A stretch of DNA of 64,000 bases from contig NZ_JABEQJ010000014.1 in the NCBI RefSeq assembly GCF_014174255.1, positions 62,001 through 126,000 of the forward strand, in the 5' to 3' direction. Below are positions 47,077 to 61,664 of the stretch, one piece after another. This DNA is from Gluconacetobacter sacchari (lineage in GTDB: Bacteria > Pseudomonadota > Alphaproteobacteria > Acetobacterales > Acetobacteraceae). Under the pieces are notes generated by a model. That model did no database searches, was not told the DNA's origin, and was given only the letters and a program-made list of their open reading frames with translations. Position 1 is the first letter of the stretch, and each line of letters begins with the position of its first letter. Position numbers and translations under genes: made by a program.

Positions 47077-48240
47077 CTAGGCTTCCATGAGGATCTCGCC
47101 GGGCAGGTCGTTCGTCATCGTCTCGCCCGGGCGGTAATGCATGACCGACCGGATCGCCTCGCCCCGACGCAGCAGGTCGAACGCCCGGTTGATCTGCCCA
47201 TGGGTCATGTTGTGCGTGATGTACGGATCGACGCTGAACTTGCCCGACAGCCATTCATCCACCATGCCGGGTAGCTCCGAGCGACCTTTCACGCCGCCGA
47301 ACGCCGTGCCGCGCCAGACCCGCCCGGTGACGAGCTGAAACGGCCGGGTCGCGATTTCCTCTCCCGCGCCGGCCACGCCGATGACGGTGCATTCCCCCCA
47401 GCCCTTGTGGCAGCATTCGAGCGCCGCGCGCATCATATCCACGCGCCCGATCGCCTCGAAGGCATAATCGACACCCCCGCCGGTCATCCCGATGATGACG
47501 TCCTGAATCGGCCCGGCATGGTCGCCGGGATCGACCAGGTCGGTCGCCCCCAGGCGTTTCGCCAGCAGGAACTTGGCGGGATTGGTGTCGATGCCGATAA
47601 TCCGCGCCGCGCCCGCCATGACCGCGCCCTGGATCACCGCCATGCCGATCGCGCCCAGGCCGAACACGGAGACCGTCGCGCCTGCCTCCACCTTCGCGGC
47701 GTTCCTCACCGCGCCCATCCCCGTCGGCACCGCGCAGCCCATCACGCTGGCCTTGGCCAGGGGCGCGTCCCGGCTGATCCTGGCCACCGCGATCTCGGGC
47801 AGCACGGTGTATTCGCTGAAGGTGCTGGTGCCCATGTAATGCAGGATCTGGCGGCCCTTGTAGGAAAAGCGGCTGGTTCCGTCGGGCATCAGCCCCTGGG
47901 CCTGCGTTTCCCGTATGGTCGAGCAGAGATTGGTCTTGCCCGAGCGGATCATCGGGCAGTTCGGATCTTCGGGGATATAAAGCGGGATGACGTGGTCGCC
48001 GGGACGGACCGAGGTCACGCCCGTGCCGATATCCTCGACGACGCCGACCCCCTCATGCCCCAGAATGGCCGGGAAACGTCCTTCCGGATCACGTCCCGAC
48101 AAGGTGAACATGTCGGTATGGCACAGGCTGGTGGTCACGATGCGGACCAGGACCTCCCCCTCCCGGGGGCCTTCGAGATCGACGAGGTCGATTTCGAGCG
48201 GCATGTTCGGTTCCCAGGCTATCGCGGCTCTCGTTTTCAT
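47077..48240 (-). CDS. Class III-like zinc alcohol dehydrogenase with altered structural-zinc lobe
   Basis: A 387-residue zinc-dependent dehydrogenase closely resembling S-(hydroxymethyl)glutathione dehydrogenase (SRF-KGRQILHYMGTSTFSEYT, GEEIATRPFQLVTGRVWRGTAFGG). Catalytic-zinc ligands are present: C40, H62, C169. The structural-zinc lobe normally has four Cys with CX2CX2CX7C spacing; here the positions read D92, C95, I98 and C106, so two ligands are gone. The Rossmann motif GLGAIG (194-199) is intact. It is downstream of a COG0523 zinc-chaperone-type GTPase behind a Zur-type operator, so it is probably made when zinc is scarce. The substrate is not proven. Confidence 0.85.
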   Translation of the reverse strand: MKTRAAIAWEPNMPLEIDLVDLEGPREGEVLVRIVTTSLCHTDMFTLSGRDPEGRFPAILGHEGVGVVEDIGTGVTSVRPGDHVIPLYIPEDPNCPMIRSGKTNLCSTIRETQAQGLMPDGTSRFSYKGRQILHYMGTSTFSEYTVLPEIAVARISRDAPLAKASVMGCAVPTGMGAVRNAAKVEAGATVSVFGLGAIGMAVIQGAVMAGAARIIGIDTNPAKFLLAKRLGATDLVDPGDHAGPIQDVIIGMTGGGVDYAFEAIGRVDMMRAALECCHKGWGECTVIGVAGAGEEIATRPFQLVTGRVWRGTAFGGVKGRSELPGMVDEWLSGKFSVDPYITHNMTHGQINRAFDLLRRGEAIRSVMHYRPGETMTNDLPGEILMEA

Positions 48241-48248
48241 CGGCTCGG

Positions 48249-48262
48249 TTCTTTCGAAAGAA
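48249..48262. repeat. 14-bp perfect palindrome between the GTPase and dehydrogenase genes
   Basis: TTCTTTCGAAAGAA is fully self-complementary and ends 9 nt before the dehydrogenase start codon on the minus strand. It could be a regulator site or a small hairpin near the ribosome site of the second gene. No known operator is matched. Confidence 0.6.
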
Positions 48263-48284
48263 TTTCACGAACGCGTCCTTGCGG

Positions 48285-49532
48285 TCAGGCGTGCGCCACG
48301 CCCTCGGCATCACGGCGCCAGGCAGGGAAGGGGTCCGGCAGGCGGGCAAAGCGCGCCGGGTCGAAGATCGTCGCGCCGTCGTCGGGCACGAGGCAGGCAT
48401 CGAGCCTGTCCCGGATGGCGGCCTCATCCATGTCGCCGGTGCCGATAAAGACGATCTCCTGGCGGCGGTCGCCATAGACCGGGTCCCAGTTGCCCAGGAC
48501 CATGTCGCGCCACTGGTCGCTGTCCGGCCACTCGGCCTTCGGCACGGAGGCCCACCACAGGCCCATCGCCTGATTGCGGACCAGTGCCCCGGCCTGGCTC
48601 ATCTCGCCCACCCAGTCGGGGCGTGTCGCCAGCCAGAAATGACCCTTCGAGCGCACCAGGCCCGGCCAGCTCGTATCGAGGAATGTCTGGAATTTCCGCG
48701 GCACGAAAGGGCGGCGCGCCCGATAGACGAAACTGCGAATGCCGTATTCGTCGCTTTCCGGCACATGCCCGGCAAAGCCGAAGAGTTCCTTGTACCAGAG
48801 CGGATGCTGATGCGCCCTGTCATAGTCGAAGCGCCCGGTATTCAGCACGCGGCCGACCGCCACCCGGCCCATGTCGGCTTCGATCAGGTCGGCATCGGGA
48901 TTGAGGGCACGAATGATCTTGCGGGCGGCCTCCACCTGGTCCGGCGTGGCCGTCGAGACCTTGTTGACGACGACGACATCGGCAAACTCGATCTGCTGGA
49001 CCAGAAGATCCACCAGCGCGCGGTCGTCCTCCTCTCCGGCCGTCTCGCCGCGATCCTTCAGGAAGTCGGTCGAACCGTAATCGCGCAGCAGGTTCACCGC
49101 ATCGACGACCGTGACCATCGTATCCAGCCGCGCGACATCGCTCAGGCTCTCGCCCGCCTCGTCGCGAAACGCGAAGGTCGCGGCCACCGGCAGCGGCTCC
49201 GCGATGCCGGTGGATTCGATCAGCAGGTAGTCGAACCGCTTCTCGTCCGCCAGACGCCGCACCTCCTGCAAAAGATCGTCGCGCAGCGTGCAGCAGATAC
49301 AGCCATTGGTCATCTCGACCAGCTTTTCATCGGTGCGCGACAGGTTGCTCCCGCCCTGGCGCACCAGGTCGGCGTCGATATTGATCTCGCTCATGTCGTT
49401 GACGATCACCGCGACCTTATGGCCCTCGCGATTGTTCAGCACATGATTCAGCAGGGTCGTCTTGCCCGCACCGAGAAAACCGGACAGCACCGTGACCGGA
49501 AGCCGGTGATCCTCTCCAACCAGCATATCCAT
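48285..49532 (-). CDS. zigA: COG0523 GTPase, ZigA-type putative zinc metallochaperone
   Basis: A 415-residue G3E-family GTPase. P-loop GFLGAGKTT (18-26), the metal-binding CxCC motif CICC (78-81), Walker B region [11 protein letters not shown] and the NKVS base-recognition segment are visible. A C-terminal CobW domain follows (from about 290). Members under Zur control (ZigA, YeiR, human ZNG1) deliver zinc to client enzymes during zinc limitation. A perfect Zur-type palindrome lies 26 nt upstream of the start, and GGAGAGAGGG supplies the ribosome site. The next gene is a zinc dehydrogenase variant, a possible client or backup enzyme. Confidence 0.85.
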
Positions 49533-49557
49533 GCAACCCTCTCTCCGAACCGAATAT

Positions 49558-49580
49558 GTTATGTTATACTATAACATAAC
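49558..49580. promoter_or_regulatory. Putative Zur (zinc uptake regulator) operator
   Basis: A 23-bp perfect palindrome (11-bp arms around C49569). Its core TGTTATACTATAACA equals the Zur box core TGTTATA-N-TATAACA known from E. coli and related in alphaproteobacteria. It ends 26 bp before the start of the COG0523 GTPase gene, where it would cover the promoter, so zinc-loaded Zur should repress the operon. Confidence 0.85.
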
Positions 49581-49746
49581 GATGCTCCGCTCCGGCGGTC
49601 AAGCGCGGGTTTCATGCTCCCGGCTTCGCTCACGTCGAACGCCTCGCGCCGATGCCGCCCGCGCGGCAAAAGGCCAGTCGCTCAAGAATCTTCAGGTCCC
49701 GATCGCACCAACAGAATCGACATGCATGCGGCAAGATTTCATGGGT

Positions 49747-60503: not shown

Positions 60504-61664
60504 TCAGGGTGTCGATTCCCGGGGAAGGGCGGCTATTGCCGGCCTGTGGATCCGCTTCAGAAGGCCGCGCATCGCGGGTTCCGGATAGGCATCGACCAGT
60601 ACTGCCACGATGAATGCACCGAGTATCGCCACGGGGACCGCATTTGTTCCCAGAGAGGGGGCGAGAAGCGTGCAGATCAGGATCGTGACCGGGGCAGGCA
60701 CCAGATAGAGCGGATAGGTGATGCGCCCCATGAATTTCAGCACCCGGGTAAACTCTGGCCGCCACGAACGGGCGGCGAGGACCTGCGTGACGGACAGGAC
60801 GATCGCGGCGAAGGCAATCCACCAGATGGCCAGCGGAAACAGCGGATTGAGATCCATTTTCGTGAGGCGCGCGATAAGATCGTTCTGTCCGATGATCTCG
60901 AGCGAACAGCCGCAGCACAGGAGCATGCCGGTGATGAGGCGTATCCTGGTCAGGCCGCTTTCCGTCGCCTCCTTGATGAGAACGCCAAGGGCAAAGAAAC
61001 AGCCATGCTGGATCAGGCAAAGCTGAAAGATGCGCGCGGCGACGGCCTTGTGGGTCCAGAGCAGGGCGAAACCGGCATAGCGGCCATGGATATGCGGCAG
61101 AACAGTTTCTAGCGTCAGGGCGACGCACCAGAACGACAGGCTGACCATGCCGAATGCGAACATGATCCATTCGAGATGTCTCAGGCGGTCGATCAGCAGA
61201 AGATAGAAGACGATCGCATAGAACGAAATTTCCACACCCAGCGTCCAATAGACGCCGTCGATGGCGGAAAACGGCCAGAAAAGCAGGGTGCATACATAGA
61301 GTTTCATGAGAGTGAGTAGAGGATGCTCACCGAGGAACGCATATATAAGCAGAGAAATCGTCGCGCAGATCCACACGCCGGGAACAAGCCTGAGCATCCG
61401 GTTCACGGCAAAACTTGACGCCGTTCCGCGAGACGCGGAGTGATGGATGACCAGGCCGGAAATGACGAAGAATATCTCGACGCCAACCCAACCGAATTTA
61501 TCGGAAATGAAGAGATGGTCGGAAATAGGCCATCCGAACCGATTTAGTGGAAGTCCTCGCAGCCTGTAGAAGAAATTAACATGATATATCATGACGATCG
61601 TTGCCGCGAAGAAACGAACAAGATCGATGCCCATCAGATGGCGCTGGGGTGTGTTGTTTCTCAT
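60504..61664 (-). CDS. Acyltransferase 3 family (OafA/YrhL-like) membrane protein
   Basis: A 386-residue inner-membrane acyltransferase with about ten membrane helices. Family features: GIDLVRFFAATIVMIYHVNFFY with the conserved His in the first helix, WVGVEIFFVISGLVIH, the RMLRLVP motif, and WTLGVEISFY. These enzymes add acetyl or similar groups to surface sugars such as O-antigen or exopolysaccharide. GC content and codon use are clearly lower than the flanking gltX and trmJ, so it is probably acquired. It stands alone, with an AT-rich promoter region upstream. Confidence 0.87.
   Translation of the reverse strand: MRNNTPQRHLMGIDLVRFFAATIVMIYHVNFFYRLRGLPLNRFGWPISDHLFISDKFGWVGVEIFFVISGLVIHHSASRGTASSFAVNRMLRLVPGVWICATISLLIYAFLGEHPLLTLMKLYVCTLLFWPFSAIDGVYWTLGVEISFYAIVFYLLLIDRLRHLEWIMFAFGMVSLSFWCVALTLETVLPHIHGRYAGFALLWTHKAVAARIFQLCLIQHGCFFALGVLIKEATESGLTRIRLITGMLLCCGCSLEIIGQNDLIARLTKMDLNPLFPLAIWWIAFAAIVLSVTQVLAARSWRPEFTRVLKFMGRITYPLYLVPAPVTILICTLLAPSLGTNAVPVAILGAFIVAVLVDAYPEPAMRGLLKRIHRPAIAALPRESTP

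Follow-up and report, generated by a model that had tools for sequence, protein, structure and literature searches.

A putative one-zinc stand-in for class III alcohol dehydrogenase in a candidate zinc-starvation operon of Gluconacetobacter sacchari

The DNA considered here, referred to throughout as the window, is a stretch of 64,000 nucleotides from the alphaproteobacterium Gluconacetobacter sacchari (contig NZ_JABEQJ010000014.1, positions 62,001 to 126,000). It contains a Zur-type operator followed, on the minus strand, by a gene for a ZigA-type COG0523 GTPase and a gene for a class III, or S-(hydroxymethyl)glutathione, alcohol dehydrogenase (ADH). The ADH retains its catalytic zinc ligands and departs from the usual enzymes of its class at the structural zinc site, where four cysteines are expected. 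We consider it probable, on the sequence evidence set out below, that it is a putative one-zinc stand-in for the four-Cys class III enzyme, derepressed through Zur as part of a zinc-starvation operon.

The operator, GTTATGTTATACTATAACATAAC, occupies positions 49558..49580 and is a perfect 11-1-11 palindrome. Shuffling produced a mean of 0 chance matches in 100 trials, and the site is unique genome-wide when up to 3 mismatches are allowed. It was also scored with a 15-base matrix built solely from the five Paracoccus denitrificans Zur sites of PMC5387054 (statements drawn from this and the other papers cited here refer to the accessible parts of their text); the score of 18.2 bits was not reached in any of 300 shuffled versions of the 200 upstream bases. 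The spacing between the box and the ATG of the GTPase gene is 25 bp. A sigma-70-like promoter match, TTGACC-18-TATGTT (49573..49602, minus strand), has its second hexamer inside the box; it is a consensus match, and the one such match on the minus strand among three promoter-like matches in the region, against 0.6 expected.

The GTPase gene (48285..49532, minus strand) is the first in the operon and encodes 415 amino acids with cobW and CobW_C domains and a GCICC motif, scoring 615.5 bits against the NCBIfam ZigA model NF038288, above its equivalog cut-off of 600. After a gap of 44 bp comes the ADH gene (47077..48240, minus strand), whose product of 387 amino acids matches the NCBIfam class III model TIGR02818 at 603.3 bits (cut-off 543.95). 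The catalytic residues C40, H62, E63 and C169 are present, as is R110, the arginine expected at position 115 in vertebrate numbering, a residue that we take to have a role in class III ADH. Class III enzymes have four cysteines at the structural-zinc positions, 92, 95, 98 and 106, where the window ADH reads Asp, Cys, Ile and Cys (D/C/I/C); the four-Cys arrangement is usual in the class and is not demanded by TIGR02818. Zinc ligands have been lost from the structural site only. The codons of this former structural-zinc lobe (residues 92-106) lie at 47923..47967 on the minus strand. Sequencing error as the source of the change was rejected, because at least two base changes are needed for each Cys-to-Asp or Cys-to-Ile codon and the pattern recurs in 20 further loci. 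An AlphaFold model of the ADH built with 16 sequences was set aside, its mean predicted local distance difference test (pLDDT) score being 55.7, and below 50 over residues 88-115. At the other end of the protein, residues 370-387 (window 47080-47133, minus strand) make up a C-terminal tail (TM..N.LPG.I) some 18 residues long, which is common to the D/C/I/C clade rows and absent from the four other rows shown (L080, L002, L050 and L012). The original prediction, made from the sequence of this locus, had described a perfect Zur-type palindrome, a COG0523 GTPase with a CICC motif, and a class III ADH with the D/C/I/C lobe and catalytic C40, H62 and C169; all of this was borne out, and its coordinates proved correct.

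Dehydrogenases of this type are rare. A family-level survey of 200 genomes found the ADH in the window's own genome only, with the next match 64% identical, and the 29 other loci from the family (the best-scoring ones, L012-L040) are all four-Cys. Sampling of the class and the phylum, in genome sets that partly overlap, gave one carrier among 384 other genomes (E <= 1e-180) and one among 397 (E <= 1e-175), respectively. Among the best 80 of 586 matches in a genome-contig collection, nine loci (L041-L049) are 76-81% identical, followed by a gap to 69%; they belong to Rhodobacterales, to Hyphomicrobiales or Rhizobiaceae, and in one case to Erwinia (L048). A plasmid collection yielded nine more, at 79.5-90% identity, from Gluconobacter, Paracoccus, Tritonibacter and Sagittula, and then a gap to 67%. 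Together with the two from the class and phylum samples these make up 20 relatives, or 21 loci with the window. The lineage thus occurs in Alphaproteobacteria and at least one gammaproteobacterium (the Erwinia), and nine of its records are on plasmids.

Within this set the altered lobe is conserved. D92, C95 and I98 are found in all 20 relatives, which are 76-90% identical to the window ADH. Eighteen rows were compared at further positions (the window, L041-L049, L121-L123 and L125-L129, leaving out L133, L134 and L124, which has a broken frame); position 106 is Cys in 17 of them and Ser in the Erwinia copy. The catalytic C, H, E and C and R110 are invariant in the 18 rows and in 101 other class III rows, which represent the nearest homologues rather than a random draw. 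Of these 101, 100 are four-Cys, the exception being a class III ADH with D/C/I/C from a Desulfurellaceae metagenome-assembled genome (L080:4001-5107). The low frequency of D/C/I/C among these nearest homologues supports the original prediction.

Phylogenetic analysis by a quick IQ-TREE method, omitting L124 and L122 (near-identical to L121), placed the 19 D/C/I/C rows in one clade with a Shimodaira-Hasegawa-like approximate likelihood ratio test (SH-aLRT) value of 100, whether the lobe columns were kept or removed. The stem branch of the clade is long, at 0.45 changes per column. L080 joins the clade when the lobe columns are included (SH-aLRT 97) and does not when they are removed. A single origin of D/C/I/C that includes L080 is unsupported once those columns are taken out and, since L080 groups only through them, recombination or convergence may explain its motif. 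The ratio of nonsynonymous to synonymous substitution rates (dN/dS) is 0.023-0.122 in ten clade-gene pairs, an eleventh being saturated, which indicates strong purifying selection on the protein.

The association with Zur extends to the relatives. When the highest-scoring matrix site within the 200 bases preceding each gene is taken, with a threshold of 11.8, a box lies directly before the ADH in 12 of the 21 loci (L042-L044, L048, L049, L123, L125-L129 and L134), compared with 5/70 four-Cys homologues given the same test; L080 was removed from these controls and shown apart. Scores above 17.4 occur in 9/21 loci, and the best of the 70 controls reaches 17.0. That 17.0-bit site, GTTATAATATAACAA, is upstream of a four-Cys ADH in Marinomonas alcarazii (L083). 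Among four-Cys paralogues from the same genomes as D/C/I/C copies, the window's own included, none of 12 has a box and none scores above 10.2 (L156 and a split four-Cys copy in G346 were not scored). In five loci the box precedes the operon leader, which is zigA in the window and L041, and folE in L121, L122 and L124; in L045 and L133 it lies about 200 and 430 bases upstream. Counting boxes before the ADH, before the operon leader or further upstream gives 19/21 loci, a figure that includes the nearly identical L121 and L122 and allows a latitude with which the controls were not scored. A degenerate 15-base Zur pattern with at most one mismatch matched the window's own genome 13 times, against 8 for a reversed control; these matches are near chance level, so sites were given weight only if they read on both strands.

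Zinc-response genes also accompany the ADH in most relatives, with at least one found in the flank examined in 16/20 by tblastn with neighbour proteins. The neighbours across the loci include zur, folE, hisI, zigA, gamma carbonic anhydrase, cysS, znu and azt. For example, Gluconobacter plasmids carry folE-hisI-zigA-ADH-carbonic anhydrase and, divergent from it, a DUF1826 gene and a Fur-family gene that matches Zur best among the NCBIfam models, at a score below the cut-off; its family match assigns the carbonic anhydrase to the gamma (hexapeptide) type. Three settings are seen on Paracoccus plasmids, with the ADH near zigA, DUF1826, other COG0523 genes and aztABCD in one, near hisI, cysS and a Fur-type repressor in the second, and near hisI, DUF1826 and a COG0523 gene in the third. 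In Sagittula a zinc ABC transporter, a repressor and DUF1826 lie close to it. The only such neighbour is DUF1826 in L043 and L044, and hisI in L048. The Rhodobacterales loci have a further feature, in that a GlxA/AraC-type regulator adjoins the ADH divergently in 11/12 of them, and also in Erwinia (L123:6863-7873, L125:6860-7873, L128:6860-7876 and others). One such protein that was scanned has a DJ-1/PfpI domain, and the shared promoter region usually carries a Zur-type box; it would be a second regulator, perhaps one concerned with the substrate.

One alternative is that the zinc neighbourhood is coincidental and the change in the lobe is ordinary drift. Loss of structural zinc is known in other medium-chain dehydrogenase/reductase (MDR) enzymes (PMC9895041), and L080 carries D/C/I/C with no zinc link. 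This explanation appears very improbable against a box within 200 bases in 12/21 loci compared with 5/70 controls, and zinc-response neighbours in 16/20 relatives, which come from several families. The zinc-starvation setting and the link to a Zur-type box that the original prediction had proposed are both supported by these counts. Its further suggestion of a GTPase-ADH pair is weakened. In 8/9 genome-contig relatives the flank examined showed no COG0523 gene and, with the ADH behind a box of its own within 200 bp in 12/21 loci, a dedicated pair was rejected as a general rule; zigA and the ADH often belong to different operons. The GTPase and ADH therefore look like co-members of one regulon rather than a chaperone and its dedicated client, and dedicated loading of the ADH by the GTPase is unsupported.

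The host genome contains a candidate regulator and the counterpart that a stand-in would call for. A Fur-family protein has Zur as its best NCBIfam match (128.2 bits, below the cut-off of 167), and its gene and a ZnuA-family gene point away from each other, separated by a region that holds a similar box, GTTACATTATAACGT. Single matches to HisI and to FolE were found. A four-Cys class III ADH, such as the original prediction had suggested looking for, is encoded elsewhere in the genome (G000:C24); it is 60% identical to the window ADH and has an S-formylglutathione hydrolase gene directly behind it, the usual glutathione-dependent formaldehyde pathway. A four-Cys copy is likewise present in all 11 other genomes with a D/C/I/C copy that were searched, making 12/12 with the host's own. 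In G346 it is in two pieces at contig ends, and one further copy, L156, shows no motif under the pattern used, its genome having another four-Cys copy (L165).

S-formylglutathione hydrolase is near 6/13 second class III copies in the 11 other genomes, and was found neither near any of the 20 relatives, in the flanks examined, nor within the window. The missing hydrolase neighbour would fit a stand-in that uses the same hydrolase, and equally a copy with another substrate. Class III ADH also has S-nitrosoglutathione activity, and the D/C/I/C copy might act on this or on some other alcohol or aldehyde, being under Zur control for that purpose and not as a replacement for the four-Cys enzyme. Besides the distribution of the hydrolase, which also adjoins the host's own four-Cys gene, the GlxA/AraC-type regulator of the Rhodobacterales loci and the long clade stem speak for such a different role; the TIGR02818 score above cut-off and the unchanged R110 and other active-site positions examined speak against it, and we regard it as unlikely.

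The stand-in reading may be put as a sequence of steps. Zinc-loaded Zur would sit on the box and promoter and, as zinc falls, would leave the box. The ZigA-type GTPase and the second class III ADH would then be made, and the latter, which keeps its catalytic zinc site and has given up the four-Cys structural site, would replace the four-Cys partner enzyme of S-formylglutathione hydrolase, its substrate presumably being S-(hydroxymethyl)glutathione. Since the structural site is lost and the catalytic site kept, the enzyme probably holds one zinc per subunit and not two. Ile98 is unable to bind zinc. Asp does bind structural zinc in archaeal enzymes, so Asp92 alone proves nothing, and the Ser106 of the Erwinia copy suggests a lobe freed from the constraint of metal binding.

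Two alternatives concern the metal itself. The lobe might still bind metal through Asp92, Cys95, Cys106 and a water molecule, perhaps weakly, which would make the ADH mainly an extra copy for times of zinc shortage that is not truly zinc-sparing. D92 and C95 are kept in 18/18 rows and C106 in 17/18. Archaeal MDR enzymes whose structural positions read D-C-C-C or E-C-C-C bind the structural zinc through Asp or Glu (PMC9895041), zinc ligands are retained in some other Zur-linked paralogues (PMC2770081), and FolE and HisI of the Gluconobacter island keep theirs, judged by eye against the motifs of these families. With Ile throughout at position 98 and the serine in Erwinia, we think a residual site of this kind rather unlikely. 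It is also conceivable that the catalytic site is filled by iron or cobalt as well, perhaps delivered by a COG0523 protein, giving a zinc-free enzyme. An E. coli ADH reportedly binds both iron and zinc (PMC11397123). Other metals have been proposed for some Zur-linked paralogues (PMC2770081). The catalytic C, H, E and C of the 18 clade rows are, however, the same as those of the 101 other class III rows, and a zinc-free enzyme seems improbable.

Several observations weigh against the one-zinc stand-in and temper our confidence in it. Since C95 and C106 are retained, a weak site could persist, or the two residues could have another role. Among the loci, L046 has only a weak site at the ADH (8.8), and L047 has none there and one before its hisI; L042, L045, L133 and L134, each with a box, showed no zinc gene in the flank examined (1.2-4 kb upstream). 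L080, with neither zinc neighbours nor a box, indicates that D/C/I/C can also occur where no zinc link is visible. The main text of an RNA-seq study of zinc limitation in P. denitrificans names no dehydrogenase (PMC5387054), the presence of the gene in that strain being unchecked. Two Acetobacter plasmids have kept the island (Fur-type repressor, DUF1826, folE, hisI and zigA, with thrS annotated next to the Fur-type repressor in L149), where behind zigA the ADH has decayed to a remnant spanning residues 227-384 in two frames (L149:4966-5424 and L150:4966-5424); two further Acetobacter plasmids give the same partial match. A Gluconobacter oxydans plasmid copy has a broken frame. These remnants and the broken frame imply that the ADH is dispensable in those hosts.

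More broadly, the clade may represent a lineage of class III ADH that dropped its structural zinc alone and, switched by Zur, replaces the two-zinc housekeeping enzyme, an arrangement that might be termed "half-sparing"; we lean towards this view. If it is correct, glutathione-dependent aldehyde oxidation would bring one more enzyme family into the zinc-starvation response, one that saves one of two zincs, and the response would reach glutathione-dependent formaldehyde chemistry and perhaps that of S-nitrosoglutathione. The lineage would also be a natural experiment on why and how medium-chain dehydrogenases lost their structural zinc, a question posed in PMC9895041, for which selection for zinc economy linked to Zur would be a direct and testable answer in one lineage. 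Cells that hold both a two-zinc class III ADH and its putative one-zinc counterpart would provide clean material for studies of metal allocation by COG0523 proteins.

Some other Zur-like sites were encountered. A gene for an S46-family peptidase has an upstream Zur-like box in the window's own genome (L141, G000:C13 near 90675) and on Gluconobacter plasmids (L121:2178 and L124:186), a hint that the response to zinc starvation may include a peptidase. A gene resembling TonB-dependent receptors by eye, with no Pfam match at the threshold used (L145, G000:C40 near 32858), has upstream a one-mismatch match to the Zur pattern, on one strand, of the kind found near chance level. Within the window, a Zur-matrix match of 16.3 bits (61581-61595) lies some 70-80 bases inside an open reading frame (60504-61664, minus strand) for an acyltransferase-like membrane protein, as judged by eye, and may be due to chance.

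Low-zinc paralogues linked to Zur are already known as a kind, and proposed Zur links exist for alcohol dehydrogenase genes. A 2018 review lists adhP for Neisseria, adhA, and zinc-free alcohol dehydrogenase paralogues under Zur (PMC6103462); for the adhA of Corynebacterium glutamicum, which is called zinc-dependent, neither binding by Zur nor an effect of a zur mutation was found (PMC2823685). The window ADH resembles these in its proposed link, and differs from them in that the accessible parts of both accounts describe no class III enzyme with loss of the structural site alone. Nor was a Zur-linked class III ADH lacking the structural site found described in the full-text literature, mostly outside subscription journals, in the parts accessible. 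Yeast xylitol dehydrogenases likewise keep the catalytic zinc and have structural Cys replaced by Asp and other residues (e.g. D-S-M-D); they are polyol dehydrogenases and not class III, with no link to zinc starvation given in the accessible part of PMC9895041. The GTPase matches the ZigA/YciC-type COG0523 proteins of NF038288 in its score above cut-off, its GCICC motif and its position next to a Zur-type box, with no difference seen. The ADH is like other TIGR02818 enzymes in its full-length match, catalytic ligands and R110, and unlike them in its D/C/I/C lobe, longer C-terminus and different operon. A comparison can also be made with the systems of Haas et al. (2009; PMC2770081). For beta- and gamma-proteobacteria they list nine families of zinc enzymes that have paralogues linked to Zur and located close to COG0523 genes; zinc ligands are lost in some of these paralogues and kept in others. 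ADH is not among the nine, and the word 'dehydrogenase' does not occur in the accessible text. Shared with those systems is a zinc-enzyme paralogue preceded by a Zur box and frequently accompanied by a COG0523 GTPase, folE, hisI, carbonic anhydrase and cysS; unlike them, the window ADH has lost its structural zinc site only and kept the catalytic one.

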